64,000 nucleotides of DNA from Streptomyces sp. NBC_00878 (GTDB lineage Bacteria > Actinomycetota > Actinomycetes > Streptomycetales > Streptomycetaceae): assembly GCF_026341515.1 (NCBI RefSeq), contig NZ_JAPEOK010000002.1:1-64000 (forward strand), given 5' to 3'. Shown here one piece after another: positions 23,428-45,146 of the stretch (the stretch's first letter is position 1; each line of letters begins with the position of its first letter). The translations under genes were made by a program, and so were the position numbers. The notes beneath the pieces are model-generated. The model saw only the letters and a program-made list of their open reading frames with translations, had not been told where the DNA came from and searched no databases.

Positions 23428-24267
23428 TCAGCCGCGAGCCGTCCATTCCAGCACGACCTTGGCGAACTCCTCGGGCAGCTGCTCCGGGACGGGGACATGG
23501 CCGCCGGACAGGACCCGCGTCTCGCAGCCGAGCGCCGCGGCGAACTTCTCCAGCCCGGGCAGCGAGTAGTGGTCCCCCGGGGCACAGACAGCGAGCGTAC
23601 GGGCCGTGATGAGCGGCAGCCGCTGGTCCATGCCGTACCGCCGGACCGCCTCGTGGCCCTCCTCGACCCGGTCGAGGACGGTCAGCGCGTCGACCATGAA
23701 CCGGTTCAGAGCCGCCTCCTGGCCCTCTGCGTAGAAGCCGCGGCGCCGGTTCCAGAGCTCCACCAGGTGTGATCCGTCCGGCCGGGGCACGACGTGGTCG
23801 ACGGGCTTGCGCCCGGCCGCCGTACGGCGTTTCTCGTCGTCGATGAAGGCCGTGGCCGAGAGCAGCAGGCTGGATACGCGGTCCTGGTAGCGGGCGGCGA
23901 GTTCGACCGCGACGACTCCGCCCGTGTGGTGTCCGACCAGATGGAAGCGTTCCAGCCCAAGAGCTTCGATCAGTGCGCCGGCGGCGTCGGCGAAACGCTC
24001 GATGGAGTGCGGTCCGGCCGGTTTCGCGGAGGCGCCGAAGCCCAGGGTGTCCATGGCGACGGCCCGGTGCGCCGTGCCGACCAGGGGCAGCACGTCGAGG
24101 TACTCGGTCCAGGAGCGCGGGGTCTGGTGGAGCAGCAGGACGGGCTCGCCGGTACCGCACTCCACGTAGTGCAACTGCCCGAAGGGGCTGGGTGCGTAGC
24201 CCCTTCGCAGGGCGTCCGTCAGGGGACTGACTATCGCGGGTGTGCCCGGCGTGGGCGTGTCAGTCAT
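23428..24267 (-). CDS. Alpha/beta-fold hydrolase with a non-canonical nucleophile elbow
   Basis: 279 residues. The fold is clear: LHYVECGTGEPVLLLHQTPRSW, VAMDTLGFGAS, a C-terminal acid in CAPGDHYS and His in SGGHVPVP. The nucleophile elbow, however, reads VGHHTGG, so His occupies the place where Ser (GxSxG) or Asp normally sits. The enzyme may use another nucleophile, act as a lyase or isomerase, or be a non-hydrolytic relative. It is the last gene of a seven-gene operon (ferredoxin reductase to hydrolase), overlapping the LLM gene by four bases. Confidence 0.88.
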   Translation of the reverse strand: MTDTPTPGTPAIVSPLTDALRRGYAPSPFGQLHYVECGTGEPVLLLHQTPRSWTEYLDVLPLVGTAHRAVAMDTLGFGASAKPAGPHSIERFADAAGALIEALGLERFHLVGHHTGGVVAVELAARYQDRVSSLLLSATAFIDDEKRRTAAGRKPVDHVVPRPDGSHLVELWNRRRGFYAEGQEAALNRFMVDALTVLDRVEEGHEAVRRYGMDQRLPLITARTLAVCAPGDHYSLPGLEKFAAALGCETRVLSGGHVPVPEQLPEEFAKVVLEWTARG

Positions 24268-25415
24268 AGGGGGTTCGCCTTTCCGCGGGGGGAGGGGAGG
24301 AGAGCCGGCAGTACGGAGGCGCCGACGCTCTCGATCAGTTCGGTGGGCGGGTCGTAGGAGCCGACGTGCTGGAGCAGGACGCCGGTGACTCCGGAGGCGT
24401 GCAGGGCGTGGAGGCGTTCCGCGATCCGGGCCGGGGAGCCGAAGAGGCAGAACTCCTCGGCGAAGCGGAGCACGGCCTCGTCGCTGATCCAGGCCGAGCA
24501 GATCTCGACGGCCGCGGCCCAGTCCTCGGCGTGCACCAGGTCCGGGTAGACCCCCTTCACCTCCGCCGGGACGTCGACCTCGATCCCCGCCAGGGCGAGG
24601 AAGGGCGCTCCGCCGTTCTGGGCGATCGACGCGCAGATCGGCTTGAGGAGTCGTGCCTCGGCCGCGACGTCGTCGGTGACCGCGCAGAACGCGGACACGG
24701 TCAGCGGGATCGCGTGGGCCGCGCGGCCCGCCGCCTCGGCGCCCTCCCGGACCCGGGCGGTGGCGCTCGCGAGGGTGGTCGGCGAGATGCCGCTGAGGAG
24801 GATGACGCCGTCGGCGATCTCACCGGCGAGCCGCAGGTTCTTCGGCCCGCTCGCGGCGAGGTGCAGCGGCACCCCGGGCCCGGGGTCGCGCAGCCGCGAG
24901 CGGACCCTGCCCTCGAACTCCCACTCCTCGCCGTCGAGCAGGGCGCGCAGCATGCCGATGCCCTCGCGCATCGCTGCCGAGGTCGTCTGGCGAAGGCCGA
25001 CCGGACCGACCGAGCTGTTGCCGACGCCGAGACCGAGCGTGAATCTGCCGGGCGCGAGTTCGGCCACGCTGCGGGCGGCTGACGCGACGACGGCGGGGTG
25101 CCTCGTCGCCAGGTTGGTGACCGCCGTCCCGAGGCCGATGCGCTCGGTGCCCAGAGCGGCGGCGGTCAGTGTGGTGAACACATCGCGCCACAGCAGTTGG
25201 GAGTCGGGGAACCAGGCGTCGTCGAAGCCGAGGGTTTCCGCGCGGCGGACCGTGTCGACCACGCGGTCGGCCCGGTCGCACGGGGGGATGCGTATGCCTA
25301 CGCGCAGCGGCTGCACCGGCTGCACCGGGTGCTTCGCCGGATGGGTTGTTCGATTGCTGCGGGTCCGCTGTGGCTGGGCGCGCAGTTCCCCGCGCCCCTG
25401 GTAGGGCGCCGTCAT
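24264..25415 (-). CDS. LLM-class F420/FMN-dependent oxidoreductase
   Basis: 383 residues from ATG at 25415, which overlaps the aldolase stop (ATGA). The luciferase-like TIM-barrel begins at LRVGIRIPP (about residue 37) and includes [41 protein letters not shown] and a C-terminal [11 protein letters not shown]. Such enzymes use reduced flavin or F420 to reduce, oxidise or hydroxylate small molecules. Residues 1-36 look like the translation of a dispersed Streptomyces repeat, so the real start may be one of two in-frame GTG codons just before LRVGIR. Its place among meta-cleavage genes suggests a step on the aromatic substrate. Confidence 0.87.
25356..25402. repeat. Dispersed Streptomyces repeat (GGGGCGCGGGGAACTGCGCG type) at the start of the LLM gene
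   Basis: On the minus strand, 25402-25356 contains CAGGGGCGCGGGGAACTGCG followed by CGCCCAGCCACAGCGG and CCGCAGC, which I recognise as a repeat normally found between Streptomyces genes. Here it overlaps the annotated N-terminal codons of the LLM oxidoreductase and the end of the aldolase operon junction. Copy number in the genome cannot be judged from this window. Confidence 0.55.
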
Positions 25416-26467
25416 TTTTGCACCCTTGCCGCCAGGTCCAGGGCCACGTCCGTGATCATGTCCTCCTGGCCGCCGACCATTCGGCGACGGCCGACCTCGA
25501 CGAGGATGGCGCGCGTGTCGAGCTCGTAGCGGGCCGCAGCCGTTTCGGCGTGGCGGAGGAAGCTGGAGTACACGCCCGCGTAGCCGAGGCTCAGGGTTTC
25601 GCGGTCCACGCGCACCGGCCTGTCCTGGAGCGGGCGGACGAGATCGTCGGCCGCGTCCATGAGCGGGAAGAGGTCGCAGCCGTGCTCCCAGCCCATCAGG
25701 TCGGCCACCGCGACGAACGCTTCCAGGGGGCAGTTCCCGGCCCCGGCGCCCTGCCCGGCCAGCGAGGCGTCGACGCGGGTGACGCCGCACTCCACGGCGA
25801 CCACGCTGTTGGCCACGCCCAGGCCCAGGTTGTGGTGGGCGTGTATGCCCAGTTCCGTTTCGGGGGACAGGACGTCCCGGTAGGCGTGGAAGCGGTCGCG
25901 GACGCCGTCCATGGTGAGCCGGCCGCCGGAGTCCGTGACGTACACGCAGTGGGCGCCGTAGGACTCCATCAGCCGTGCCTGGGCGGCCAGTTCGGCCGGT
26001 TCGGCCATGTGGGACATCATCAGGAACCCGGCCACGTCCATGCCCAGCTCCCGGGCGGCGGCGATGTGCTGGGCGGAGATGTCGGCCTCGGTGCAGTGCG
26101 TGGCCACCCGCACCGAACGGATGCCCAGCGAGTGGGCCTGTTTGAGGTCGTGGACGGTTCCGATGCCAGGCAGCAGGAGGGTGGTCGGGATCGAGTGGCG
26201 TACGGCGTCGCAGACCGCTTCGATCCACTCCCAGTCGGTGTGGGCGCCGACTCCGTAGGTGATGCTGGAACCCGACAGGCCGTCACCGTGCGAGACCTCG
26301 ATGGCGCGGACCCCCGCTTCGTCGAGGGCGGAGGCGATGGTGCGGGCCTGCTCGACGGTGTAGCGGTGCCGGATGGCGTGCATGCCGTCGCGCAGGGTGA
26401 CGTCCTGGATGTACAGCGGGGCTGACTGGCCGGAGGCTTCTCGGGTGGAGGCTTCTTGGGTGGTCAT
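25412..26467 (-). CDS. mhpE: 4-hydroxy-2-oxovalerate aldolase
   Basis: 351 residues from ATG at 26467. The DmpG/MhpE/HsaF-type TIM barrel begins [17 protein letters not shown], with the metal and catalytic residues in TLRDG, the [13 protein letters not shown] segment near 205-215 (metal His pair) and [14 protein letters not shown]. The communication domain is at the C-terminus. It cleaves 4-hydroxy-2-oxo acids to pyruvate and an aldehyde, and in this family channels the aldehyde to the partner dehydrogenase encoded immediately upstream, with a four-base overlap. Confidence 0.95.
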
Positions 26468-27414
26468 CGGGACGCCTCCGCGGTCGTTCCTGCGTGGTGT
26501 GCGGCCAGGCGCTCGGCGGTGCGCAGCGCGGCCGACGTCATGATGTCGAGGTTGCCCGCGTAGGCCGGCAGGTAGTGGGCGGCGCCCTCGACCTCCAGGA
26601 ACACGGACACCTTCACGGGAGTCGAGCCGGCCGGCACCAGCGCGCGCAGCGGATCGTCGGCGCCGATGTGCTCGAACTGCACCTTCTGCTTGAGGCGATA
26701 GCCCGGTACATACGCCTGGACGCGGCCGACCATGGCCTCGACCGAGGCGGCGACCGCTTCCTCGTCGCACTCCGAGACCAGGCAGTGCACGGTGTCGCGC
26801 ATGATCAGCGGCGGTTCGGCGGGGTTGAGGACGATGACGGCCTTGCCCCGCCGCGCGCCGCCGACCCGCTCGATCGCGGACGCCGTGGTCTCGGTGAACT
26901 CGTCGATGTTGGCCCGGGTGCCGGGCCCCGCCGAGCGGGAGGCGATCGAGGCGACGATCTCCCCGTAGTGCACGGGCGTCACCGCGGACACCGCGGCGAC
27001 GACGGGGATCGTGGCCTGGCCGCCGCAGGTCACCATGTTGACGTTCGGGCTGTCCAGGTGGGCGTCCAGGTTCACCGGCGGCACCACGTACGGGCCGAGC
27101 GCGGCCGGGGTCAGGTCGACCACCGTGCGCCCGAGGCCGCGCAGCACCTCGTCGTGGCGACGGTGGGCGCCCGCCGACGTGGCGTCGAAGACGATCCGTA
27201 CGTCCGCGAACTCGTCCAGCGCCACCAGACCGTCCACGCCCTCATGGGTGGTGGCCACCTTCAGGCGGCGAGCGCGCGCGAGGCCGTCGGAGGCCGGGTC
27301 GATTCCGGCGAGCGCGGCCATCTCCAGGCTCTCGGACAACCGCAGCACCTTGATCATGAGATCCGTGCCGATGTTGCCGGAGCCGATGACGGCCACCTTG
27401 GTGCGGGCGGTCAT
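26464..27414 (-). CDS. mhpF: Acetaldehyde dehydrogenase (CoA-acylating)
   Basis: 316 residues. The N-terminal Rossmann motif is [19 protein letters not shown], followed by [15 protein letters not shown] and the catalytic Cys in [12 protein letters not shown] near residue 127, all as in MhpF/DmpF/HsaG. It oxidises acetaldehyde (or propanal) to the acyl-CoA with NAD+ and CoA. Order and overlaps (hydratase, dehydrogenase, aldolase) are standard for meta-cleavage lower pathways; the dehydrogenase and aldolase form a channelling complex. Confidence 0.96.
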
Positions 27415-28205
27415 GACGCGTCCCCCTCCGTCGCGAACTCGGCTGTCACACGGCCCAGTTGGCTGATGTGTGCCTCGAACCGGTCGCCGGGGGCCGCCAC
27501 CGCCATCGGCCCGAGTGCTCCGGTCAGTACGACGTCGCCCGCCCTCAGCGGATCACCCATGCCGGCCAGCGTCGAGGCGAGCCAGGCGGCGGCGTTGAGC
27601 GGGCTGCCCAGGCAGTCGGCGCCGGTCCCCTCGGACACCGCCTCGCCACCCCGGGTCATCGTCATGCGTACGCCGCGCAGGTCCAGGCCCGTCAGCGGTA
27701 CGGGCGTGCCGCCGAGCACGAACAGGCCGCTGGAGGCGTTGTCGGCGACGGTGTCGACGATGCCGATGTCCCAGTCGGCGACCCGGCTGTCCACGATCTC
27801 CAGTGCGGGCAGCGCGAAGTCCGTCGCGCGCAGCACATCGACCACCGTGCAGTCGCGGTGGGGCAGTCCGGAGCCGAGGACGAGGGCGACCTCCGCCTCG
27901 ACCTTGGGCTGGAGCAGCCTTCCGGCCGCCACCGGGCTCCCCTCGGGGACCGCCATGTCGGCGAAGAGGGTCCCGAAGTCCGGCTGGTCCACGCCGAGTT
28001 GGGTCTGCACGGCGGGTGAGGTCAGGCCGATCTTGCGGCCCACGATCCGCCGCCCGGCCGCCACGGCGCGCCCGACGTTCACCCGCTGCACGGCATAGGC
28101 GGCCTCCAGGCCGGAGACGTACGTGCGGACCGGAGCGCACGGCGTGTTCGTCCGCGCGGCCTCCCGCAGTTCGTCGGCCGCCTTGACCACCTCCGCGGCG
28201 GTCAT
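27411..28205 (-). CDS. mhpD: 2-keto-4-pentenoate hydratase
   Basis: 264 residues from ATG at 28205. Family features are [29 protein letters not shown] near residues 55-85, the metal-binding Glu pair in [15 protein letters not shown], and [13 protein letters not shown]. The enzyme hydrates 2-hydroxypenta-2,4-dienoates to 4-hydroxy-2-oxo acids, the step before the aldolase. It overlaps both neighbours by four bases. Confidence 0.95.
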
Positions 28206-28537
28206 CGCGCACCGCCCGTGGTGGAGGTGACGAGCAGGGTGTCGACCCCCACGGGGCCGAGGCCGGTCGCCCCACCCGGTGTGCCCAGCGCGGTCGTCCG
28301 GCCGGGCAGCGGCTCCTCGAAGAAACGGCGGTTGTCGGCGCGGAACTCCGGCTCGGCGAGGCGGTCGACGGCGATGGCCTGTTCCGGGCAGGCCGTCTCG
28401 CAGGCGCCGCAGTCGATGCACTCCACCGGGTTGATGTAGAGCTTGCGCTCGCCCTCGTAGATGCAGTCGACCGGACATTCCTCGATACAGGACCGGTCCA
28501 TGATGTCGACACAGGCCGACCCGATGACGTACGCCAT
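28202..28537 (-). CDS. fdxA: 7Fe ferredoxin (FdxA type)
   Basis: 111 residues. The N-terminal half has the [3Fe-4S]/[4Fe-4S] pattern of seven-iron ferredoxins: [19 protein letters not shown] and [12 protein letters not shown]. The C-terminal extension ends in GGATGLGP, shared with FdxA. It lies one base after the reductase stop on the minus strand and overlaps the hydratase start. The likely role is electron carrier from the reductase encoded upstream to the Rieske oxygenase at 35869-37074. Confidence 0.93.
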
Positions 28538-28538: not shown

Positions 28539-29561
28539 TCAGTTCTCCTTCTCCGTGGAGTGCCCGGGGAACAGGGCCGCCTCCGGATCGATGACGGTGG
28601 CCGCGTTGTTGACCGCGGTGGCGACCTCGCCGAAACCCACCGCGATCAGGCGCACCTTGCCCGGGTAGTCGGTGATGTCACCGGCGGCGAACACGCGGGG
28701 CACGCTGGTGGCCATCCGGGTGTCCACGGTGATCCGCTTCGCCTGGAGTGCCAGCCCCCAGTCCCCCAGCGGGCCGAGGTCGGCGAGGAAGCCGAGGGCG
28801 GCGACGACGGTGTGCGCCGACAGCAGCCGGGTGTCCTTGGTGGTGCGGTGCCGGACCTCGATCCGCTCCACCCGTGACGCCCCGTGCAGGGCGCTCACCT
28901 CGGAGTCGGTGATGATCTCGATGCCCAGCGCCCGTACCTTGTCCACAGTTGCCTGATGGGCCCGGAAGCGGGCCGTGCGGTGGACGAGCCGGACCGACCG
29001 GGCGATCGGGGCCAGCGTCGCCGCCCAGTCGAAGGCGCTGTCGCCGCCGCCGACGACCACGACGTCGTGGTCGGTGTGCTCGGCCGGGTCCGGCACGAAG
29101 TAGACCTGGCCGCGACCGAGGTAGCCCTCGCCCGCGGGCAGCGGTCTGGGGGTGAAGGTCCCCAGCCCGCCGGTGATCACCACCGCCCCGGCCCGCACGG
29201 CCGTTCCCTGGTCGCCGTGGACGACCGGCCGGCCGTCGGCCGCGCGGGTGAGGCGGAGTGCCCGGTGGCCAAGGAGGTAGCGGGGACCGTACGGCTGCGC
29301 CTGCGCGACCAGGTTGTCGACCAGGTCGTGGCCGCGTACCGCCGGGAAGCCCGCGATGTCGAAGATGGGCTTCTCGGGGTACATCGCGCTGATCTGGCCG
29401 CCGCACTGGGGGAGGACGTCCATGACGGTTACGCTCAGTCCGCGGAAGCCCGCGCAGTAGGCGCCGTACAGGCCCGACGGGCCGGCGCCGATGATCAGGA
29501 TGTCGGTCTCGATCACCGACGACTCGTCCGGGGCGACCGGCTCATCAGTGGGAACGCTCAT
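28539..29561 (-). CDS. Thioredoxin-reductase-like ferredoxin-NAD(P)+ reductase
   Basis: 340 residues from ATG at 29561; no strong ribosome site is visible. Motifs are the FAD-binding TDILIIGAGPSGLYGAYCAG, CGGQISAMYPEKPIFDIAGFP, the NAD(P)-binding VVVVGGGDSAFDWA near residue 180 and the FAD-closing VFAAGDITDYPGKVRLIAVGFGE. There is no CxxC redox pair, which separates it from thioredoxin reductases and matches YumC-type ferredoxin reductases. It heads the seven-gene leftward operon and probably completes a three-component Rieske system with the ferredoxin next to it. Confidence 0.92.
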   Translation of the reverse strand: MSVPTDEPVAPDESSVIETDILIIGAGPSGLYGAYCAGFRGLSVTVMDVLPQCGGQISAMYPEKPIFDIAGFPAVRGHDLVDNLVAQAQPYGPRYLLGHRALRLTRAADGRPVVHGDQGTAVRAGAVVITGGLGTFTPRPLPAGEGYLGRGQVYFVPDPAEHTDHDVVVVGGGDSAFDWAATLAPIARSVRLVHRTARFRAHQATVDKVRALGIEIITDSEVSALHGASRVERIEVRHRTTKDTRLLSAHTVVAALGFLADLGPLGDWGLALQAKRITVDTRMATSVPRVFAAGDITDYPGKVRLIAVGFGEVATAVNNAATVIDPEAALFPGHSTEKEN

Positions 29562-29622: not shown

Positions 29623-29701
29623 GCGGCGCTTAGCCGGGCGGCCAGGCGGTGGGAGCGTGGCGCGAACACGACGCTTCCACCGGTCCGGGAGGACGAATCA
29701 C

Positions 29702-30679
29702 ATGGATGCACTCAACGTCAGAAAAGGGCGCCTGCCGGCCGTCCTCATGGCCCTCGTCCTCTCCTCCGCGTGCACGGCGGGCGCGGTGGACTCCGCGGGC
29801 GGGCAGGCGGCGGGAAAGCCCACGGTCCGTGTCGCCCTGGGGGTCGACGCCTCGTACGCCCCGTTCTACCTGGCCGAGGAACGCGGGATGTTCGAGAAGG
29901 CGGGCGTGAACGTCGAGCTCGTGAAGACCGAAGGCGGCCCGGCGGCTACCGAGGCCGTGACGGCCGGCACCGCGCAGATCGCGGCCAACGCCGACTCCAC
30001 CGCCCTCTCGCTCATGGTCGGCAGCCCCGACCTGCGGGCGCTGGGCGTCTTCCAGTCCTCCGACCGCTATCTCAAGGTCGTCCTGCGGGACGGCATCGAC
30101 TCCCCGAAACAGATAAAGACCATGGCGTCGATCGCGGGGCTCGGCCTCTACGCGACCCACTCGTACCTGCGCCACAACGGCATCGACCCGAAGTCCGTGA
30201 AGATCCTGCAGAGCTCGCCGCCGGAGATCCCCGGACTGCTGGAGCAGGGCTCGATCGACGCGTACGTCCTGTTCGAGCCGTGGGCGGCGCGCGGCGACGC
30301 GGCGGGCGGACACATCGCGGGGCGCATCGGCGACTTCGGGGTGAAGTACGTGCAGTGGCTGATCGCCGACCAGAAGTGGCTCAAGGACAACGAAGAGGCC
30401 GCCGGAAAGGTCTTCAAGGTGGTGGCCGCCGCGGACAAGATCGTCACCGACGACCCGGACGCCGCGGCCAAGGCCTCCAACCAGCAGGTGAAACTCCCCG
30501 TGGAGGCCACCAAGAAGGTGCTCCCGGAGATCACCTTCGCCGCTCGCGGCATCGAGGACGCCGATGTCGTCGAGTCCCGCAAGATCATCGACTTCCTGCT
30601 GGCGCAGAAGCTGATCAAGAAGTCGCCGGACCTCGACACGGCTCTGCTGAAGGGCTGGTACGAGCAGCACGGCACGTGA
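29702..30679 (+). CDS. NitT/TauT-type ABC transporter substrate-binding lipoprotein
   Basis: 325 residues. ATG at 29702 follows GGGAGGA by 8 bases. A lipoprotein signal peptide ends in LSSAC. The mature part has the NMT1/SsuA-like fold: VALGVDASYAPFYLAEERGMFEKAGVNVELV, then GTAQIAANADSTALSLMVG and GSIDAYVLFEPWAARGD. This family binds nitrate, sulfonates, thiamine precursors or aromatic acids. Its ATPase and permease are probably the genes at 37517-39264, on the same strand but 7 kb away beyond the divergent catabolic block. The 3' end overlaps the convergent dehydratase gene by 65 bases. Confidence 0.9.
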   Translation: MDALNVRKGRLPAVLMALVLSSACTAGAVDSAGGQAAGKPTVRVALGVDASYAPFYLAEERGMFEKAGVNVELVKTEGGPAATEAVTAGTAQIAANADSTALSLMVGSPDLRALGVFQSSDRYLKVVLRDGIDSPKQIKTMASIAGLGLYATHSYLRHNGIDPKSVKILQSSPPEIPGLLEQGSIDAYVLFEPWAARGDAAGGHIAGRIGDFGVKYVQWLIADQKWLKDNEEAAGKVFKVVAAADKIVTDDPDAAAKASNQQVKLPVEATKKVLPEITFAARGIEDADVVESRKIIDFLLAQKLIKKSPDLDTALLKGWYEQHGT

Positions 30680-31073
30680 GGTCGACCTGCCCTGTGACAC
30701 AGGGAGCGCCGTCGTCCCGGAGCACGAAGACGTCGAGCGTCACCCGCACCCCTGAGTCACAGGGCGCCACCGTACGCACGGTGCCGCTCCAGGTGAGCGG
30801 CTCGCCGGCCACGGCGGTCGCGACATTGCGCCAGCTCACCGATTCCAGGCAGGCGTCGGGCCCGGCCCACTCCAGCGCGTACCGGGTGAGCGTTTGACCG
30901 TGCAGCGTCGACTGCACGACCACGTCGGAGAAGCCCTCGGACACGGCGAACTCGGCGTCGTAGTGGATGCGATGGGAGTTCCACGACACGGCGCTGAACC
31001 GGAACAGCTGGAGCCTGCTGTGCGTGTACCGGCGCGGTGGGCAGACATCGCCGACGGCGGCAGGGGTGTTCAC
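30615..31073 (-). CDS. HTD2/MaoC-like hydroxyacyl-thioester dehydratase
   Basis: 152 residues of a hot-dog fold. The characteristic segment FRFSAVSWNSHRIHYD near residue 30 is that of HTD2 and mesaconyl-C4-CoA hydratase-like proteins, where the His takes part in catalysis, followed by GFSDVVVQSTLHGQ. It overlaps the FAS1-like dehydratase gene by four bases; the two would form the two halves of a double hot-dog hydratase acting on acyl-CoA. The last 65 bases overlap the binding-protein gene on the opposite strand. Confidence 0.87.
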   Translation of the reverse strand: MNTPAAVGDVCPPRRYTHSRLQLFRFSAVSWNSHRIHYDAEFAVSEGFSDVVVQSTLHGQTLTRYALEWAGPDACLESVSWRNVATAVAGEPLTWSGTVRTVAPCDSGVRVTLDVFVLRDDGAPCVTGQVDLTCRAARTSPSAEPCRGPATS

Positions 31074-31591
31074 GCGGTGGCTCCCTTCGGGAGGGCGGCC
31101 AGGACGACGACCGTCTCGTCCACGGCGGTCAGTTCGGTCCCGTCCGGCGCGGTGTAGCGGGTGGTGAGACCGAGGAGTACGAAGTCGCCGGACCGGCCGT
31201 GCTTCCGTTCGGCCGAGGTGACCGCACGCGACGCGGTGACCCGGGTGCCCGCGAGCGGGGCCCGGGTCAGGCGCACCGACTGCCCGCCGTGCACCTGGCG
31301 CACCGGGAGGCCCTGGGTGCAGGGTGACTCTCTGACGGCCAGGCCGTCAGGCAGCAGTTCGTCCTCGGGGGGTCCGTCCTCCCAGCTCATGGTCGCCGCG
31401 AGGAAGAGCGCCGGAGCCTCGACCGGTTGCCCGGCGGCCTCCTGGTCCCGCGCCCGCCGCAGGTAGCCGAGGTCGTCGACCGCCGCCGCGTACCGGCAGA
31501 AGTCCTTCACGGTCACCGTGCCGCAGTCCTCGTCCTCCCACCGGCCGATGAGGCCACGGGCCCGGGACAGCACGTCGTCCAGCACGCTCAC
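31070..31591 (-). CDS. FAS1-like dehydratase domain protein (MaoC N-terminal half)
   Basis: 173 residues. It matches the N-terminal hot-dog half of MaoC-type dehydratases (WEDEDCGTVTVKDFCRYAAAVDD, LFLAATMSWEDGPPEDELLPDGL, VRQVHGGQSVRLTRAPLAGTRVTASRAV). Such half-domains usually pair with a catalytic half, here the HTD2-like protein encoded next. Together with the CoA ligase and CoA transferase of the island it suggests a CoA-thioester branch, for example hydration of an enoyl-CoA side chain. Confidence 0.86.
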   Translation of the reverse strand: MSVLDDVLSRARGLIGRWEDEDCGTVTVKDFCRYAAAVDDLGYLRRARDQEAAGQPVEAPALFLAATMSWEDGPPEDELLPDGLAVRESPCTQGLPVRQVHGGQSVRLTRAPLAGTRVTASRAVTSAERKHGRSGDFVLLGLTTRYTAPDGTELTAVDETVVVLAALPKGATA

Positions 31592-35749: not shown

Positions 35750-35866
35750 TCAATGGTTGATCCTGTGGACTTGGGTCATCGTGGTGCGCGCGAAGCGCTT
35801 CCTGGCAACGGGGAGCGCTACGGCGATCCCGGCCCCGATCAGCAGAGTGAGCAGTGTGCGGCCCAT
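35750..35866 (-). CDS. Small membrane peptide (38 residues) behind the Rieske gene
   Basis: ATG at 35866 lies two bases after the Rieske stop and has AAGGAGG 8 bases upstream, a near-perfect ribosome site. The peptide reads MGRTLLTLLIGAGIAVALPV and then a basic stretch (ARKRFARTTM). It is therefore a single membrane helix with a positively charged cytoplasmic tail. I know no homologue. Its tight coupling to the oxygenase suggests a membrane tether or transport accessory, or simply a stable leader; this is inference. Confidence 0.6.
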   Translation of the reverse strand: MGRTLLTLLIGAGIAVALPVARKRFARTTMTQVHRINH

Positions 35867-35868: not shown

Positions 35869-37074
35869 TCAGGCCTCCTTACCGTCGGTGCCCGTCGCGG
35901 CCAGCTTCTTGCCGTACTCCTCCTCGCTGAGGTTCCGCCAGGCGGTCAGCGAGATGTCGGGCCGGTAGAGCTTCTCCGGGGGCGCGTCCGTGATGTCGAC
36001 CATCCACGCGTCCTGGCCGGAGAACTGCCCATGGAACAGCCAGCGGATCGCGCCCAGGTACTTGCCGTAGAAGCGCAGGGTGTCCCAGCCCTCGGTGAAG
36101 TTGACCATCACGCCGACATAGCGGTGGTTGTCCTCGTCGACGGGGACGTAGAACTCGTAGTGGATGAAGTTCGGGTACGCGATGCGCAGCACACCCGGCA
36201 TCGACAGGGACGCGAAGCCGGGGAACTCCTGGGCCTCGATCGTCGGGTTGATCTTGTCGGCCTTGCCGGTGTTGCCGATGTTGAAGGTTTCCTTCGGCGG
36301 CTGGAACTTCCACCACCGTTTGTTGGACCAGCGGCCGACGCCCGGGAACTCGGCCTCCCAGTAGACCTCGTCCTGCACGCGGAAGATCCAGCGGCCCTTG
36401 GGCACGATCCGGGTGATGTTCCAGGTCGGCATGGGTTTGAACAGCCGCCACAGGGCCGTGCGGTGCAGGTATTTGGCGTGGCCCTCGTCGAAGCCGTTCT
36501 CGCAGGCGAAGCGCCAGTTGCCGCTGCGCGGGTCGATCCGGCCGCCCATCACGAAGGCGTTGGAGACGAGCTCCTCCGGCAGCTGTGAGTCGATCGGGTG
36601 CGGCTCCTCGTCGGCGAGGGGGATGTACACCCACACCATGCCGAGCCGCTCCTCGACGGCGTACGTACGGACGGACACCTTGCCGGTCAGCCGGCAGCCG
36701 GGCCCGTCGGTGATGACCGCGGCCAGCTTCCCGGTGGGCAGATCGAAGGTCCAGCCGTGGTACGGGCAGCTCACCGTGCCGGGGAACTGCTGGTCGCCCT
36801 CGGACAGCGGCACCCCGCGGTGCGGACAGCGGTTGTGCAGCGCGTACGCCGTACCGCCGTCCCGGATCAGGGTGATCTTCTCCCCGCAGATCGTGAACGG
36901 GAGCGGCTTGCCGGTGATCTGGCTGGACCAGGTGACCGGGTACCAGTAGCCGCGGAAACCCGCGCCGGCCGCGTCGTAGTGTGGCCACGACTTCCAGTCC
37001 TGCCGGCCGGGCTCTGCCGGTCTGCGGCGGCTCCGGATAGGGGTCGGTGCGTCGGGCGAGTCCTCGACCGTCAT
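35869..37074 (-). CDS. Rieske non-heme iron oxygenase, terminal (alpha) component
   Basis: 401 residues, AGGAGGA before the ATG. The Rieske cluster ligands are in NRCPHRGVPLSEGDQQF and SCPYHGWTFDL (CxH near 82, CxxH near 102). The mononuclear iron motif is ENGFDEGHAKYLHR near 213. The start (YDAAGAGFRGYWYPV) and end (AWMVDITDAP, TAWRNLSEEEYGKK) resemble the homotrimeric CarAa / 2-oxoquinoline 8-monooxygenase group, which uses a separate ferredoxin and reductase, both encoded at 28202-29561. The likely role is the initial dioxygenation or hydroxylation of an aromatic or N-heteroaromatic substrate. Confidence 0.93.
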   Translation of the reverse strand: MTVEDSPDAPTPIRSRRRPAEPGRQDWKSWPHYDAAGAGFRGYWYPVTWSSQITGKPLPFTICGEKITLIRDGGTAYALHNRCPHRGVPLSEGDQQFPGTVSCPYHGWTFDLPTGKLAAVITDGPGCRLTGKVSVRTYAVEERLGMVWVYIPLADEEPHPIDSQLPEELVSNAFVMGGRIDPRSGNWRFACENGFDEGHAKYLHRTALWRLFKPMPTWNITRIVPKGRWIFRVQDEVYWEAEFPGVGRWSNKRWWKFQPPKETFNIGNTGKADKINPTIEAQEFPGFASLSMPGVLRIAYPNFIHYEFYVPVDEDNHRYVGVMVNFTEGWDTLRFYGKYLGAIRWLFHGQFSGQDAWMVDITDAPPEKLYRPDISLTAWRNLSEEEYGKKLAATGTDGKEA

Positions 37075-37516
37075 CGTGCGTGTCCTCCTGCTGCCGGGTG
37101 AACGGTGGTTGTGAGCATGCGCGGACCCGCCAATCCGCCCAAGGGACCTGTCCCGCTGAGCAGACCACTCGGCGCGGATACCGAGAAAACGCCAGGTGGC
37201 GGGTGTGGAGGCGCCCGTCCCCCGGACGGTTTCCCGCGCGCGTCCCGCTCAGCGGACCCCCGTCGATGCGGGCGGGGTACGGCGCGTTCTACGGTGCGCC
37301 CATCCCGGGCCGCACTCCGACGACGGGCCGCACCCCGACGAGCTGCCGGAACCGCCGGTCTCTCCCCAACCACCGAGCCAAAACCACCGAGCCAACCACC
37401 GAGGTGCTCATGGAGAAACGCTCCGACGCAGGCCACCCCTTCGCCGGCTCCGCCGCACTCACCACCGCCGAGACCGTTCGGCACGGGTGGCCCACCCAGC
37501 ACACGAAGGGGTCGTG
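37075..37516. promoter_or_regulatory. 442-base divergent regulatory region with two copies of the island motif
   Basis: The space between the Rieske and ATPase genes holds no convincing gene. Copy A of the shared motif is at 37135-37166 (CCGCCCAAGGG... TCCCGCTGAGCAGACC) and copy D, reversed, at 37242-37258 with a GGGCGG at the matching distance. The decamer AACCACCGAG occurs three times at 37368, 37382 and 37394. A 35-codon ORF (37410-37517) overlaps the ATPase start by one base, with weak GAGG in front; I do not call it a gene. Confidence 0.55.
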
Positions 37517-38446
37517 ATGACCAAGGCCATCGAGACCGACCGCCGGGAGACCGGCTCCGCGCCGGGGCGCGGGGCGGCGGTGTCCGTCGACGGCGTGGGC
37601 ATCCGCTTCGGCTCCTTCCAGGCCGTACGGAACATCTCCCTGGAGATCGCCGCCGGGGAGTTCCTCTGTCTGCTCGGTCCGAGCGGATGCGGCAAGTCGA
37701 CCCTGTTGTCCGCGATGGCGGGCTTCGAGGCCGTGGCCGAGGGCGGCCTCCGGGTCGGCGGCACCCCGATCAACGGACCCCATCCCGGCCTTGGCATGGT
37801 GTTCCAGAGCAGCGAGGCGCTGTTCGACTGGATGACCGTGCGGCAGAACGTGGCGTTCGGACCGCGGATGCGCGGTGCGACGCGCGCGGCGCAGACGAAG
37901 CTGGTCGACGAATACCTCGGCCTGGTGGGGCTGCGGCACTGCGCGGACCGGTTTCCCGACCAGCTGAGCGGCGGCATGCGCCAGCGGGTACAGATCGCCC
38001 GGGTGCTGGCCAACGAACCGAGCGTCGTGCTGATGGACGAGCCGTTCGGGGCACTCGACGCGCAGACCCGGCAGGTGATGCAGGAGGAGACGGACCGCAT
38101 CTGGCGCGCCTCGGGCTGCACCGTCGTCTTCGTCACCCACGACATCGACGAGGCGATCCTGCTGGCCGACCGGATCGCCGTCATGACAGCGGGCCCGGCG
38201 GCCTCGGTCAAGTCCGTCTACCCGGTGGACCTGCCCCGGCCCCGGGACGAGGCCGACCCGGCCGCCGCCGAACTGCGCCGCGCGCTGCGGGCGGACATCG
38301 GCGAAGAGGTCCGCAAGTCCCTCCGCGACCAGGGCCTCGATCCGGGGATGGACCAGGGCATGGACCAGGGCGCCGAGCAACGCCTCGACCCGGTCATGGA
38401 CAAAGGCCTCGACCACGACGCCGACCTGGAGGGGAACATCCGATGA
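37517..38446 (+). CDS. NitT/TauT-type ABC transporter ATP-binding protein
   Basis: 309 residues. Walker A is GPSGCGKST near residue 56, the Q-loop VFQSSEALFDWMTV, the signature LSGGMRQRVQIAR, Walker B VVLMDEPFGALD and the switch region VTHDIDEAILLADR. These are typical of nitrate/sulfonate/taurine importers. The C-terminus has a short repetitive tail (GMDQGMDQ, LDPVMDKGLD) beyond the usual length. It overlaps the permease gene by four bases and would use the binding protein encoded at 29702-30679. Confidence 0.93.
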   Translation: MTKAIETDRRETGSAPGRGAAVSVDGVGIRFGSFQAVRNISLEIAAGEFLCLLGPSGCGKSTLLSAMAGFEAVAEGGLRVGGTPINGPHPGLGMVFQSSEALFDWMTVRQNVAFGPRMRGATRAAQTKLVDEYLGLVGLRHCADRFPDQLSGGMRQRVQIARVLANEPSVVLMDEPFGALDAQTRQVMQEETDRIWRASGCTVVFVTHDIDEAILLADRIAVMTAGPAASVKSVYPVDLPRPRDEADPAAAELRRALRADIGEEVRKSLRDQGLDPGMDQGMDQGAEQRLDPVMDKGLDHDADLEGNIR

Positions 38447-39264
38447 CTGTCGCCGCGGCAGGTGCCGCCACCACCCCGCAAGCCCAGCGCCGCCCGGCCG
38501 GGACGACGACGAGGAACCTGCGGGCGCTCGGCGTGTACACGCTGTCCGTCCTCGTCGGCATCGGCGTCTGGCAACTGCTGGCGATGACGTACGGCTCCAC
38601 CCTGGTCGCCTCCCCCCGGGAAACGCTCAGCGCCGCCGAAGAGCTGGCGCGCGACGGCACACTCACCAACTCGGTGATCGCCTCGGGCCGCCGGATCCTG
38701 ATCGGCTGGGGACTCGGCGTACTCGTGGGCGTACCGGTCGGCCTGCTCGTCGGACAGATCAGGATCGTGCGGCAGTTCCTGGAGCCGTACATCGAGTTCT
38801 TCCGCTTCATCCCGCCGATCGCCTTCGTGACCCTGGCCGTGGTGTGGCTGGGCATCGGCGAGTCGTCGAAGGTCGTCCTGATCTTCTACACGGCCGTCTT
38901 CATCGTCACCCTCAACACGAGTGCCGGTGTGATGGCGGTCAGCGAGTCGAAGCTGCGCGCCGCGGCGAGCCTGGGCGCGAGCCGTTGGCAGATCCTGCGG
39001 GGGATCGTGCTGCCGTCGACCGTGCCGCACATCGTCACCGGGGCCCGGCTCGCGATGGGCAACAGCTTCCTGACCATCGTCTCCGCCGAGATCGTCGCCG
39101 CCCAGGTCGGGCTCGGATCGCTGATCTGGACCTCCCGCAACTACGGGCGGATCGACTGGGTCTTCGTCGGAATCATCACCTTGGGAATCCTCGGGTTCGT
39201 CTTCGACCGGATCCTGCGGGTCGTCGCCTCCCGGGTCCTGCGCAGGTACGGAGTGAAACTGTGA
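38443..39264 (+). CDS. NitT/TauT-type ABC transporter permease
   Basis: 273 residues, ATGA overlap with the ATPase gene. About six helices; the conserved cytoplasmic loop SKLRAAASLGASRWQILRGIVLPSTVPHIVTGARLAMGNS near residues 165-205 is the ATPase-coupling segment of SsuC/TauC-like permeases. IEFFRFIPPIAFVTLAVVWLG is also typical. Together with the ATPase it forms the uptake system for the substrate of the island. Confidence 0.93.
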   Translation: MTVAAAGAATTPQAQRRPAGTTTRNLRALGVYTLSVLVGIGVWQLLAMTYGSTLVASPRETLSAAEELARDGTLTNSVIASGRRILIGWGLGVLVGVPVGLLVGQIRIVRQFLEPYIEFFRFIPPIAFVTLAVVWLGIGESSKVVLIFYTAVFIVTLNTSAGVMAVSESKLRAAASLGASRWQILRGIVLPSTVPHIVTGARLAMGNSFLTIVSAEIVAAQVGLGSLIWTSRNYGRIDWVFVGIITLGILGFVFDRILRVVASRVLRRYGVKL

Positions 39265-40226
39265 ACGAAGTCGTCGGCGCCGAGACGTCACGTGCCCTGG
39301 TCCTGGAGCGGTTCGGCACGCTGCCGCGACTGCTGGAACGGACGGTGCCGGAGCCACGGCCCGGCCACACCCTCGTACGGATGCGGGCGGCCCAGCTCGG
39401 CCACCTCGACGTCAACATCGTCGACGGCAGGTTCGGCGTGCTGCCGGACCTCCCGGCCGTACCCGGCACCACTGGGTGCGGGATCGTGCTCGCCTCGGAC
39501 AAGCACCCCGAGGGCAGTCTGGTCCGGCTCGGCGGCAAGGGGCTCGGCATGCGGCGGGACGGGTGCTGGGCGGAGCACGCACTTGTACCGGACGCCGCCG
39601 TGGAGACGCTCCCGCAGGACATCGACCCCGCCCTGGCGTGCAGCTACTTCTCACCGGCAGGCACGGCCTGGGCCGCCGTGCACACGGTCGCGGCGGTACG
39701 GCCGGGGGAGCGGGTCATGGTGACCGGCGCGGCGGGAGCGGTCGGCGCGCTGACCGTGCAGGTCGCGGCGCGGGCCGGGGCCGAGGTGGTCGGAGTGGTC
39801 GGGCGACCGGCGAAGCTCGACCACGTTCCCGCGCCCGCCAAGGCGGTCCTGGCCGCCGAGCTGTCCGCGGAGTCGGTGGGCGGCCCGGTCGACGTACTCG
39901 TCGACACCGTGGGCGGCCCGGTCCTGCGGGACGCCCTCCCGCTGGTCCGGCCACGCGGACGCGCCGCGCTCGTCGGCTACACCGCGGGCCGCGAGTTCGG
40001 CGTGGACCTCGCGGACTTCCTCCTGGCCGACGTAGCACTGCTGCCCGTCAACCTGATGACGCGCGGCAAGGAGGTCGCCGCGGACGCCGAGCGGCTGCTG
40101 GCGGAACTACAGGCGGGCACGCTGACCTTGGCGATCGAGCGCCACGGCCTCGACGAGCTGGCGGAGGCCGCGCAGCGGCTGCGGACGGGGGAGGCCATCG
40201 GCAAGGTCGTCCTCGACATCGGGTGA
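39261..40226 (+). CDS. MDR-family quinone reductase / zinc-free alcohol dehydrogenase-like oxidoreductase
   Basis: 321 residues. GTG at 39261 overlaps the permease stop and follows GGAG by 7 bases. The GroES-like N-terminal domain is followed by the NADPH-binding VMVTGAAGAVGALTVQVAARAGAEVVGV near residue 155. No structural zinc Cys cluster is seen, which fits quinone oxidoreductase-like MDR enzymes. The substrate is unknown, but the operon suggests it reduces an enone or quinone intermediate of the aromatic pathway. Confidence 0.88.
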   Translation: MNEVVGAETSRALVLERFGTLPRLLERTVPEPRPGHTLVRMRAAQLGHLDVNIVDGRFGVLPDLPAVPGTTGCGIVLASDKHPEGSLVRLGGKGLGMRRDGCWAEHALVPDAAVETLPQDIDPALACSYFSPAGTAWAAVHTVAAVRPGERVMVTGAAGAVGALTVQVAARAGAEVVGVVGRPAKLDHVPAPAKAVLAAELSAESVGGPVDVLVDTVGGPVLRDALPLVRPRGRAALVGYTAGREFGVDLADFLLADVALLPVNLMTRGKEVAADAERLLAELQAGTLTLAIERHGLDELAEAAQRLRTGEAIGKVVLDIG

Positions 40227-40232: not shown

Positions 40233-40264
40233 GGCCCGCTCAGCAGACCGATCCACTTGGGCGG
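40233..40264 (-). promoter_or_regulatory. Shared catabolic-island motif, copy C
   Basis: On the minus strand this reads CCGCCCAAGTGGATCGG followed by TCTGCTGAGCGGGCC, the same order and spacing as the blocks at 29591-29622 and 37135-37166. It lies in the 74-base gap between the oxidoreductase and hydrolase genes, the only sizeable gap in this operon, and may control an internal promoter. Confidence 0.5.
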
Positions 40265-40300
40265 AACCAGCCCTCACCACACCATCGGAGCATGGAACAC

Positions 40301-41173
40301 ATGGATCTCATGGACATCCAGACGCCCCCGGAGGGCAGTTACGCGGAAGCGGACGGCGTCAAGTACCACTACGTCGAGCTGGGGGAGAGCGGCGGTAGCC
40401 CCACCGTCTTCCTGCACGGCGGCGGCCCCGGGTGCACCGGCTGGTCCGACTTCGGGCAGGTGGCACCCCTGTTCGCAGCGGACCGCCGGTGCCTCCTCGT
40501 CGACATCCTGCAGTACGGGAAGTCCGCGAAGCCCGTCATCGAGGGCCCCATGTGGGACTACCACGCGGCCAAGGTCGTGGCGCTCCTCGACACCCTCGGC
40601 GTGCAGCGCGCCGACTTCGTCTGCAACTCGTGGGGCGGCACGATCGCGCTCAACCTGGCCGCCAAGTACCCCGAGCGCGTACGGTCGTTGGTGATCACCG
40701 GCAGCATGCCCGTCTTCCACGGCCCGCTCGCCCCGCTCCCCGAAGGCGGCCGCCGCGGACGCAACGCCCGCGACCGCTACTACGGCGGCTCGGGCCCCTC
40801 CTGGGAGAAGATGCGCGAACTGATCGCGCGCCTGGAGTGGTACGACCCCGACGCCGTCCCCGACGGCACGGTGACGCTCCGCTTCGAGCAGAGCCTGGAC
40901 CCCGAGGAGACCGCGCTGGCCGGCGCCTCCGACAACCCGCGCGGCGACTGGCAGGACCTCACCGTCGAACTCGGCCTCATCGCCGCGCCGACGCTCTTCC
41001 TGTGGGGCATGTACGACGCGTTCCTGACCCCGGACTACCCGCTGATGCTGGCCCGCATGGTCCCCAGGGGCAACCTGCACATCATGAGCGAAGCCTCCCA
41101 CCATCCGCAGGAGGAACGGCCGTACGACTACCACAGCGTGGTCACCGGTTTCCTCGACCAGAACCACAACTGA
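40301..41173 (+). CDS. Meta-cleavage product hydrolase (MhpC/BphD type)
   Basis: 290 residues from ATG at 40301 (GGAG 10 bases upstream; an ATG nine bases earlier is too close to it). The oxyanion loop VFLHGGGPGCTGWSDFGQV near residue 38 is characteristic of hydrolases of 2-hydroxy-6-oxo-dienoates. The nucleophile is in VCNSWGGTIALN near 108, the acid in LWGMYDAFLTPD near 235 and the His in SEASHHPQEERP near 265. It should cleave the C-C bond of the ring-fission product to give a hydroxypentadienoate for the hydratase and an organic acid. Confidence 0.9.
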   Translation: MDLMDIQTPPEGSYAEADGVKYHYVELGESGGSPTVFLHGGGPGCTGWSDFGQVAPLFAADRRCLLVDILQYGKSAKPVIEGPMWDYHAAKVVALLDTLGVQRADFVCNSWGGTIALNLAAKYPERVRSLVITGSMPVFHGPLAPLPEGGRRGRNARDRYYGGSGPSWEKMRELIARLEWYDPDAVPDGTVTLRFEQSLDPEETALAGASDNPRGDWQDLTVELGLIAAPTLFLWGMYDAFLTPDYPLMLARMVPRGNLHIMSEASHHPQEERPYDYHSVVTGFLDQNHN

Positions 41174-41209: not shown

Positions 41210-41220
41210 GTGGAGGAAAC

Positions 41221-43575: not shown

Positions 43576-45146
43576 ACGGACAACCGGGCGCCGCGGTGAA
43601 CGGTCGGCCGAGTAGTCCGGTAAACGCCATGACCGTGCCCGGACTCCTCGCCGCGGCCGCCGAGGAGTTCGGCGACCGGGTCTTCCTGCGCGTGGGGGAC
43701 GTGTCACGGACGTACCGGCAGTCGCGGAGGGCGGCGGCCGAGATGGCGGGAGCACTCGCGGCGCGCGGCTGCCGACCGGGCGACCGCGTCGCCGTCATGG
43801 CAGGCAACCGGATCGAGTTCGTCGACCTGATCCTCGGCTGCGCCTGGCTCGGCGCGGTCCTGATACCGCTGAACACCGGTCTGCGCGGCCAGGGCCTCAG
43901 GCACGTCCTGCGCGAGGCGGAGCCGTCCTTCCTGCTCGCGGAGGCCGAGCCGGCGGACCGCGTCCTGGAGGCCGGCTTCCGCGGCACACTGTGGGTCGTG
44001 GGCGAGGACGACGTCCCCGTACCGGGTGAGGCCGCCGCCGTCCGGTCGCCACCCGCACGCCCGGACGACACCGTCTTCGTCCTGTTCACCTCGGGAACCA
44101 CCGGGCCCCCGCGCGGCGTGCGCTGTCCCCACGCCCAGACCGTCTGGTGGGGCCGCAACGTCGCGGACTCGCTGCGCCTCACCGCCGACGACGTGCTCCA
44201 CACCTGCCTCCCGCTGTTCCACACCAACGCCCTCAACACGCTCGCGCACGCCATGACCGTGGGCGCGACCTGCGTCATCGGGGAACGGTTCTCCGCCACG
44301 CGGTACTGGGACCTGGTGGCCGAGAGCGGTGCCACCGCCGTGTACCTGCTCGGCGCGATGGCGCCCATGCTGCTGGCGCAACCACCCGGCGGGCACGACC
44401 GCGCGCATCGAGCATGGCGAGGCCTCTCACCCGCCACGCCCGCCTCCGCGTGGCAGCCGTTCCGCGAGCGCTTCGGCGTTACCCTCGTCGACGGTTTCGG
44501 CTCCACGGAGACGAACCTCGTCATCGGATCGACCCCGGAGGACCAACGCCCCGGGCACATCGGCACCCTGCGCGACGGCTTCTCCGCCCGCGTGGTCGAC
44601 GAACACCTCGCGCCCGTCCCGGACGGAACGGCCGGTGAGCTCGTCGTCCGCAGCCACCGGCGATTCGCCTTCTCCACCGGCTACTTGGGAGACCCCGAAC
44701 GGCCTCCCGACACCTGGCGACGCACGGGCGACCGCGTGATCCGCGAGCCCGACGGCTCGTACCGCTTCGTCGACCGGGTCAAGGACGTCATCCGGCGCCG
44801 CGGCGAGAACATCTCCTCGTACGAGGTGGAGTCGGCGGTCCGTTCGCATCCCGCGGTCGCCGACGCCGCGGCCTTCCCGGTGCCCTCGGAACTGGCGGAG
44901 GACGAGGTCATGGTGGCGGTGCTCCCGCGACCCGGGTCCGTCCTGGACCCAGGCGACCTCGTACGCCACTGCGAGCGCGAGTTGCCCGCCTTCGCCGTGC
45001 CCCGGTACGTCGACACCGTCCCGGCACTGCCGCTCACCGAGACCGGCAAGGTCCGCAAGACCGTACTGCGCGAACGGGGTGTCACCGCCGGCACCTGGGA
45101 CCGGGCCGCGGAGGTCAGTCCAACTGTGCGGCCACGGCACCCGTGA
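43572..45146 (+). CDS. AMP-dependent acyl-CoA synthetase/ligase
   Basis: 524 residues. GTG overlaps the CoA transferase stop. The ANL motifs are present: the P-loop FVLFTSGTTGPPRGVR near residue 172 (Arg in place of the usual Lys), VDGFGSTETN near 310, TGD near 395, FVDRVKDVIRRRGENISSYEVE near 405 and the catalytic Lys in LTETGKVRK near 493. Most like carnitine/crotonobetaine or aromatic-acid CoA ligases. It closes the rightward operon; the last 32 bases overlap the convergent SGNH gene. It probably activates a side-chain acid released during catabolism. Confidence 0.92.
   Translation: MNGQPGAAVNGRPSSPVNAMTVPGLLAAAAEEFGDRVFLRVGDVSRTYRQSRRAAAEMAGALAARGCRPGDRVAVMAGNRIEFVDLILGCAWLGAVLIPLNTGLRGQGLRHVLREAEPSFLLAEAEPADRVLEAGFRGTLWVVGEDDVPVPGEAAAVRSPPARPDDTVFVLFTSGTTGPPRGVRCPHAQTVWWGRNVADSLRLTADDVLHTCLPLFHTNALNTLAHAMTVGATCVIGERFSATRYWDLVAESGATAVYLLGAMAPMLLAQPPGGHDRAHRAWRGLSPATPASAWQPFRERFGVTLVDGFGSTETNLVIGSTPEDQRPGHIGTLRDGFSARVVDEHLAPVPDGTAGELVVRSHRRFAFSTGYLGDPERPPDTWRRTGDRVIREPDGSYRFVDRVKDVIRRRGENISSYEVESAVRSHPAVADAAAFPVPSELAEDEVMVAVLPRPGSVLDPGDLVRHCERELPAFAVPRYVDTVPALPLTETGKVRKTVLRERGVTAGTWDRAAEVSPTVRPRHP

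Follow-up and report, generated by a model that had tools for sequence, protein, structure and literature searches.

The window, 64 kb at the start of contig 2 in the genome of Streptomyces sp. NBC_00878 (11.1 Mb, six contigs), contains a probable catabolic island of ~22 genes at positions 23428-45146, as called with a codon-bias gene caller and family scans. The island combines a Rieske oxygenase, an M20-fold protein that has lost most of its metal ligands, an extradiol dioxygenase, α/β hydrolases, MhpD/E/F-type enzymes, a coenzyme A (CoA) branch, and an importer (Table 1). All gene classes named in the original prediction, which was made from the letters and their reading frames, were located within these limits. 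Its statement that nearly all genes overlap by four bases was overstated, the coordinates giving 10 such overlaps among 18 same-strand junctions (or 11 with a ligase start at 43572) and gaps of 1-134 bases at the remainder. The genes it did not mention, encoding the M20-fold protein, an IclR-family regulator, an MDR-family enzyme, two α/β hydrolases (23428-24267 and 40301-41173), and a 38-amino-acid product, are the most telling ones of the island.

Scanning genome contigs with the Rieske protein returned at least 580 relatives, of which the best 80 were kept with flanks of up to 10 kb on each side. Gene presence in these loci was counted by tblastn at identity thresholds of 30 to 60%, depending on the gene; the loci were chosen by Rieske similarity, 16 of the 80 are shorter than 20 kb, and none was dropped from the presence counts. 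Residue counts use the best orthologue per locus, excluding those below 200 bits (below 110 bits for abh1). The sequences of three alignments, A1 (20 sequences, L066 not among them) and A2 and A3 (21 each, from 20 loci), were picked for diversity.

The closest named loci are from Streptomyces, with the Rieske protein of S. phaeochromogenes (L024) being 97% identical. Genes for the Rieske oxygenase, M20 protein, LigB-type dioxygenase, abh3, mhpC-like hydrolase, and IclR regulator occur together in 52 of the 64 loci of at least 20 kb, and a median of 218 bases (maximum 4920) separates the Rieske and M20 genes across the 80 loci. This grouping of core genes is not chance, because the core recurs in most of the 80 related loci; the low MhpD/E/F counts are partly due to the 10-kb flanks. 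Genera with this pathway include Streptomyces, Actinomadura, Nocardia, Rhodococcus, Nocardioides, and Mycolicibacterium. Among 296 evenly sampled Actinomycetota genomes, the M20 and LigB profiles each hit three and the Rieske profile four (E ≤1e-60), the same three carrying all; one of them is the window's own genome, and the set is present in one of the nine tabulated genomes of its genus.

The two most distant of the actinobacterial genomes (L089-L091) have the genes for the Rieske oxygenase, abh3, M20, LigB, mhpC-like hydrolase, abh1, IclR, and MhpD/E/F close together, most of them forming one compact run in L091. In the stretch read there, the CoA transferase, importer, FdxA, and TrxR-like reductase of the window have no homologues. 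Since both genomes keep the ring-cleavage module and the M20 protein without CoA transferase or importer, gene content defines this module as the probable core, with the CoA branch, LLM-class enzyme, and importer as apparent additions. The CoA transferase, LLM-class enzyme, and importer look like accessories because they are less conserved and lack a homologue in these two loci. The whole block as one indivisible pathway is ruled out by the uneven conservation over the 80 loci and the compact core of the distant genomes.

The M20 protein adopts the M20 fold, and its closest solved relative by sequence, profile, and fold (AlphaFold2 model, predicted local distance difference test score 86.7) is 5-nitroanthranilate aminohydrolase (PDB 5k8m-5k8p), at only 23-26% identity. 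This enzyme removes an aromatic amino group hydrolytically, according to the available passages of PMC10306065 and PMC4539516. Its SHLD, CGEID, and VAEA motifs become YAPID, GAGGM, and IAKP in the window family, with the His and Glu positions lost. Across the aligned orthologues, metal-ligand positions are replaced by Pro104 (from His, 79/79), Asn146 (from the bridging Asp, 80/80; Asn also in 5-nitroanthranilate aminohydrolase), Gly180 (from Glu, 80/80), Lys217 (from Glu/Asp, 80/80), and Asn423 (from the last His, placed by eye, 80/80), leaving Asp106 alone. The roles of these positions are those of canonical M20 enzymes, mapped via alignments to 5-nitroanthranilate aminohydrolase and 3pfo. 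The altered motifs are found in 116 to 120 of the best 120 of 1697 homologues; Pro104, Asp106, Asn146, Lys148, Gly179, Gly180, Met181, Lys217, Asp388, and Arg401 are present in all of the best 120 of 789 homologues of the Cupriavidus necator M20 protein. In a same-genome control, which is partial, the regular expression [GSA]HxD matches 10 of 16 PF01546 loci. The window gene is not listed by a PF01546 search of the whole genome; in the family scan of the island it scores 19.5 bits, under the cut-off of 24.6. The usual database name of the gene, a DapE/ArgE deacylase, is ruled out in its ordinary sense by the replacement of the ligands in 79-80 of 80 aligned orthologues. The searched viral contigs hold no relative of the family, and we found no description of a role for it in the open-licence literature. 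Position and fold make the M20 protein a candidate for nitrogen removal.

The M20 gene lies downstream of the Rieske gene, whose product carries a PF11723 domain (58.4 bits, cut-off 24.4). The Rieske Cys2His2 ligands and the mononuclear iron site (His199, His204, and Asp355) are conserved in 83 of 83 aligned sequences, and the class and both sets of ligands are shared with the solved oxygenases CarAa (3gcf) and OxoO (1z01). Both are remote matches, and CarAa differs in His spacing, the alignment giving His-x3-His there and His-x4-His in the window protein; an Asn-Gly-Phe-Asp motif aligns with 3gcf. FdxA and the TrxR-like reductase, whose first PDB match is 2zbw (named thioredoxin reductase, 293 bits) followed by ferredoxin-NADP reductases, are encoded inside the island and adjoin the Rieske gene in many of the 80 loci. 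From this gene position, they likely form the electron chain of the Rieske oxygenase.

Ring cleavage is assigned to the LigB-type dioxygenase, in which the metal and acid-base residues His12, His58, and His122 (79/79) and His187 and Glu272 (78/78 ungapped) are conserved. The "MhpB-type" label given by the original prediction stands at family level and fails at subfamily level. Among the hydrolases, abh3 has an intact Ser110-Asp239-His267 triad in 77 of 77 aligned sequences and is the likely C-C hydrolase. The mhpC-like hydrolase keeps Ser109 and His264 and lacks an intact triad, its catalytic Asp being replaced by Asn236 in 79 of 79, and abh1 has His114 at the nucleophile position in 50 of 50 aligned orthologues. 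Because the altered catalytic residues are invariant across each family, the abh1, mhpC-like, and M20 sequences suggest functions that changed rather than disappeared. MhpD, MhpE, and MhpF each score above an NCBIfam cut-off. The island thereby resembles the Mhp 3-phenylpropionate pathway in MhpD/E/F at family level and in the LigB superfamily; it differs from it in the score of its LigB protein, which falls short of the MhpB cut-off, and in the Asn of its MhpC-like protein.

Between the Rieske and M20 genes lies a microprotein composed of a membrane helix, a basic stretch, and a C-terminal TQVHRIN. A motif-plus-helix test identifies it in 78 of the 80 loci and returns no matches when this DNA (1.58 Mb) is reversed; since TQVHRIN was derived from these very sequences, the count is descriptive, with the reversed DNA serving as control. 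One loose test places it in 48 of the 50 loci with M20 less than 600 bases after the Rieske gene. The microprotein moves with the cluster: in Mycolicibacterium and Rhodococcus loci it sits between abh3 and the mhpC-like gene, the split cluster of L065 has two copies, and in L057 the motif terminates the Rieske reading frame itself. In 28 Streptomyces sequences, variation is about twofold higher at the third codon position (0.298) than at the others (0.157 and 0.139); all pairs together give 3220 synonymous and 3514 non-synonymous codon differences. No Pfam or NCBIfam model matches at cut-off, no mention of the motif was found in the open-licence literature, and the microprotein was not found in L089-L091, the C. 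necator loci (L092/L093), or L052. The simplest guess is a membrane anchor or assembly peptide.

A palindrome upstream of the Rieske gene, GTCYCGCTSAGCRGACC, defines three window sites with at most one mismatch, against a shuffle expectation of 0.03. The pattern was built from words enriched upstream of Rieske genes together with the window sites there, so the matches at 37150 and 37242 arise partly by construction; the 40233 site and the lack of further window sites do not. A slightly broader pattern, widened to include the third site, finds only these three perfect matches in the whole genome (11.1 Mb), with five one-mismatch sites vs six in the reversed control. A related 15-mer (≤3 mismatches, a loose threshold applied without shuffling) precedes the Rieske gene in 73 of 80 regions (the window plus 79 loci, one locus having no upstream stretch), often near -90. 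Looser searches of the window carry no signal, either for the operator core at ≤2 mismatches (32 sites vs 22 expected) or for the 17-mer at ≤3 mismatches (4 sites vs 5 expected). By sequence, the three palindromes are operator-like and would tie the island operons together, with the IclR protein as candidate regulator and their natural reader. A weaker similar dyad, seen by eye, lies near 29607-29623 before the TrxR-like gene.

Table 1. Genes and sites of the probable catabolic island (window positions), with supporting evidence and presence in the 80 related loci
Feature	Position	Strand	Evidence	Loci of 80
abh1, α/β hydrolase, nucleophile elbow GHHTGG	23428..24267	-	Pfam Abhydrolase_1	48
LLM-class (F420/Mer-like) oxidoreductase	24264..25325	-	PF00296 185.9 bits (scanned with 29 residues added before the called GTG start)	9 (at ≥50% identity)
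4-Hydroxy-2-oxovalerate aldolase MhpE	25412..26467	-	TIGR03217 567.6 bits, cut-off 286	9
Acetaldehyde dehydrogenase, acylating, MhpF	26464..27414	-	TIGR03215 468 bits, cut-off 282	9
2-Keto-4-pentenoate hydratase MhpD	27411..28205	-	NF008461 357 bits, cut-off 350	16
FdxA-type ferredoxin	28202..28537	-	NF045480 126.5 bits, cut-off 125	53
TrxR-like ferredoxin-NAD(P)H reductase	28539..29561	-	PDB matches; no CxxC	55
NitT/SsuA-type substrate-binding protein	29702..30679	+	TIGR01728 98 bits (cut-off 163.5); PF13379, PF09084 above cut-off	27-28 (importer)
Presumed MaoC-like partner of FAS1-like hydratase pair	30615..31073	-	Translation; class presumed from position	21
FAS1-like dehydratase domain protein	31070..31591	-	PF13452 25.1 bits, cut-off 22	21 (pair)
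IclR-family regulator	31588..32322	-	IclR_C 130 bits	66
mhpC-like α/β hydrolase	32411..33280	-	79/79 aligned	76
LigB/MhpB-type extradiol dioxygenase	33277..34233	-	PF02900	76
Metal-less M20-fold protein, candidate for ring-nitrogen removal	34230..35615	-	Nearest 5-nitroanthranilate aminohydrolase	77
Single-pass membrane microprotein, 38 amino acids, C-terminal TQVHRIN	35750..35866	-	Rieske-M20 gap	78
PF11723 (CarAa/OxoO class) Rieske oxygenase	35869..37074	-	Family scan, PDB match, residue conservation	
Operator-like palindrome 1	37150..37166	.	Between Rieske and importer operons	
Operator-like palindrome 2	37242..37258	.	Between Rieske and importer operons	
NitT-type ATP-binding cassette (ABC) ATPase	37514..38446	+		27
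NitT-type ABC permease	38443..39264	+		27
MDR-family dehydrogenase/reductase, candidate ene-reductase	39261..40226	+	YhdH/AcuI-like, below cut-offs	53
Operator-like palindrome 3	40233..40249	.	Upstream of abh3	
abh3, BphD/HsaD-like hydrolase	40301..41173	+	Below BphD and HsaD cut-offs	74
Double family-III CoA transferase, 784 amino acids	41221..43575	+	PF02515 544 bits, two stretches	47
AMP-forming acyl-CoA ligase	43629..45146	+	NF004808 661 bits, cut-off 722	42

Among 72,556 plasmid records searched at E 1e-20, relatives of the M20 protein are found on plasmid p1 of C. necator C39 only. The M20 gene there follows an OxoO-like Rieske gene (863 bits against 2-oxo-1,2-dihydroquinoline 8-monooxygenase, OxoO) and a BenC/MmoC-type reductase gene and precedes an amidase gene. 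The record is circular, and beyond its origin, ~4 kb from the oxygenase gene, are encoded an MDR-type enzyme, MhpB (above the equivalog cut-off), MhpD, MhpF, MhpE, and a BphD-like hydrolase that scores 369 bits against a cut-off of 462; a molybdenum-hydroxylase-type gene lies ~28 kb from OxoO, with an old-yellow-enzyme-type gene adjoining. Identities between window and C. necator proteins are 61-69% for MhpD/E/F, 37% for M20, 30% for LigB, 29% for the Rieske protein, and 28% over 221 residues for the MDR enzyme. Judged from genes alone, p1 encodes the enzymes of the 8-hydroxycoumarin route, which, with ammonium release, is proposed for a quinoline-degrading Rhodococcus in the available passages of PMC9029321; these draw no enzyme for the conversion of 8-hydroxy-2-oxoquinoline to 8-hydroxycoumarin (or a phenylpropionate) and free nitrogen. 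The original prediction had held that the combination of genes matches no nameable pathway. As worded, this is not supported, as a CarAa/OxoO-class Rieske oxygenase, MhpB, a C-C hydrolase, and MhpD/E/F are the set of the 8-hydroxycoumarin route, and the C. necator plasmid carries that set together with a relative of the M20 protein.

The island shares with this route (P. putida 86 type; C. necator p1) a PF11723 Rieske oxygenase, a metal-less M20 protein, a LigB/MhpB-type dioxygenase, a BphD-like hydrolase, MhpD/E/F, and an MDR-type gene. It differs in using an FdxA and TrxR-like chain instead of a BenC/MmoC-type reductase, in adding a CoA branch, an importer, degenerate hydrolases, and the microprotein, and in having no molybdenum hydroxylase nearby. 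The island appears by this comparison to work like the 8-hydroxycoumarin route without being a member, because its Rieske protein is not an OxoO orthologue, a molybdenum hydroxylase (Qor) is missing nearby, and its dioxygenase scores below the MhpB cut-off. Quinoline itself is an unlikely substrate, given the missing molybdenum hydroxylase, the LigB score, and the extra CoA branch. No description of an orthologous cluster was found in the open-licence literature, and the substrate may, as the original prediction proposed, be new.

We read the locus as an inducible island for an N-heteroaromatic compound of 2-quinolone/oxindole (lactam) type, with a probability of about 0.45; the original view of a catabolic island for a heteroaromatic compound is retained here as the likeliest one. 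Gene content, conservation, catalytic residues, operator-like palindromes, and the position of M20 behind an OxoO-OxoR-like pair on one plasmid are observed; every reaction, the reaction order, and the substrate we infer. The importer would take up the substrate, and the Rieske oxygenase, fed by the TrxR-like reductase and FdxA, would hydroxylate the benzene ring at the position next to the ring nitrogen. The M20-fold protein would then remove the nitrogen, so that an ortho-aminophenol or lactam becomes a 3-substituted catechol, which LigB would open by extradiol cleavage. From the cleavage product, the BphD/HsaD-like abh3 would release 2-hydroxypenta-2,4-dienoate and an acid; MhpD, MhpE, and MhpF would convert the dienoate to pyruvate and acetyl-CoA, and the CoA ligase, CoA transferase, and hydratases may process the side-chain acid.

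Several observations weigh against the lactam reading. The aminohydrolase mechanism is not simply transferable to the M20 protein because most of the metal ligands are lost, and the proteobacterial context of the family is seen for one locus, that of C. necator C39. Among solved structures, the Rieske protein is closer to CarAa 3gcf (163.4 bits) than to OxoO 1z01 (126.7 bits, vs 863 for the C. necator L092 protein), and LigB reaches 172.3 bits where the cut-off for MhpB, 2,3-dihydroxyphenylpropionate dioxygenase, is 286. In the two most distant loci, FdxA and the TrxR-like reductase do not adjoin the core. A genome search with PF02738 finds no molybdenum hydroxylase near the island, the nearest lying 208 kb off on the same contig at C2:208496, and one query finds none in the 80 loci; Qor is a weak criterion, as the nearest candidate in C. 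necator is also ~28 kb from OxoO. The quinoline nitrogen step is assigned to an "hdo" 2,8-dihydroxyquinoline dioxygenase in PMC11945285, whose available passages contain no assay.

A substituted aromatic compound without nitrogen (phenylpropanoid, coumarin, or aryl acid), turned into a 3-substituted catechol by the Rieske oxygenase while the M20 protein serves as a scaffold or a tautomerase/lactonase-like enzyme without removing nitrogen, is a somewhat unlikely substrate. The loss of the M20 metal ligands leaves hydrolysis unassured, the LigB/MhpB family and MhpD/E/F suit hydroxyphenylpropanoids, the CoA ligase and hydratases suit aryl acids, and an MDR-family enzyme, HcdE, acts on 7-hydroxycoumarin in the passages of PMC7913881, but the M20 family stands behind an OxoO and reductase pair in C. 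necator, its nearest structure takes off an aromatic amino group, and N-heterocycles are the substrates of the Rieske protein's nearest solved relatives. These same relatives include, as the best match, carbazole 1,9a-dioxygenase (3gcf), with its aligned Asn-Gly-Phe-Asp motif, and abh3 is BphD-like with an intact triad, so that angular dioxygenation of a diarylamine or fused N-heterocycle to an amino-substituted aryl catechol can be envisaged, with LigB and abh3 completing a CarA/CarB/CarC-like series and M20 acting on a side amide. We consider such a carbazole-like route very improbable: the structure matches of LigB are MhpB (nearest), protocatechuate 4,5-dioxygenase, and gallate dioxygenase, CarB not being among them (an absence that may reflect a lack of CarB structures), and fused substrates of this kind seem too scarce to account for such a broad distribution in soil.

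The island could also consist of separate pathways, two or more in number, with a CoA/LLM/importer module that adjoins the core ring-cleavage module by chance. This would fit the spread from 9 (LLM), 21 (hydratase pair), and 27-28 (importer) to 77 (M20) of 80 loci and the two most distant genomes, which have no CoA transferase or importer homologues near the core. We regard this as improbable, since operator-like palindromes precede both the Rieske/importer pair and the abh3-CoA transferase-ligase genes, and CoA transferase relatives are found in 47 of the 80 loci.

A farther-reaching version of the lactam reading, which we offer as an unlikely but specific proposal, would make the M20-fold family new metal-free hydrolases that cut aromatic or lactam C-N bonds after ring hydroxylation. 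The family would then supply the missing nitrogen-removing enzyme of the quinoline/8-hydroxycoumarin route and also that of an undescribed, widespread actinobacterial pathway for N-heteroaromatics; in Actinobacteria it would be located at the membrane with the 38-amino-acid microprotein, whose cytoplasmic TQVHRIN tail would dock pathway enzymes. Standing behind an 8-monooxygenase and its reductase, with an aromatic aminohydrolase fold and a lost metal site, the M20 family is a concrete, cheaply testable candidate for the nitrogen step. It also marks a widespread actinobacterial pathway and is accompanied by a conserved microprotein outside Pfam and NCBIfam families.

The MDR enzyme could, by analogy, reduce a coumarin-type double bond. 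The available passages describe HcdE as an MDR-family enzyme reducing 7-hydroxycoumarin (PMC7913881) and XenA as the coumarin-type double-bond reducer of P. putida 86 (PMC5519977).

The surroundings of the core vary among the related loci. One of the two distant genomes (L089-L090) has, at L089:15796-19501 and L090:3-1274, a cytochrome P450 gene and, in place of the window's CoA-ligase set, a different one with a phenylacetate-CoA-ligase-like gene. Copper amine oxidase-like and aldehyde dehydrogenase-like genes, so named from their sequences, adjoin the core in six Mycolicibacterium and Rhodococcus loci (L064, L066, L070, L074, L077, and L078), hinting at an amine-bearing precursor. The flanks of an Actinomadura locus (L050) encode acyl-CoA dehydrogenase-like, FAH-type, and glyoxalase-type proteins, two amidohydrolases, a metallo-β-lactamase, and an FAD hydroxylase.

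In the window itself, the stretch adjoining the island at 18233-23296 encodes a second IclR protein, a double AsnC regulator, an amidohydrolase, and an AbgT-family transporter, and is possibly a separate unit for aminobenzoyl or peptide utilisation. On the other side, the minus strand at 47792-52146 carries genes for a Gfo/Idh/MocA oxidoreductase and an extracellular solute-binding protein, followed by two ABC permease-like genes (the permeases from gene calls alone), seemingly unrelated to the island.

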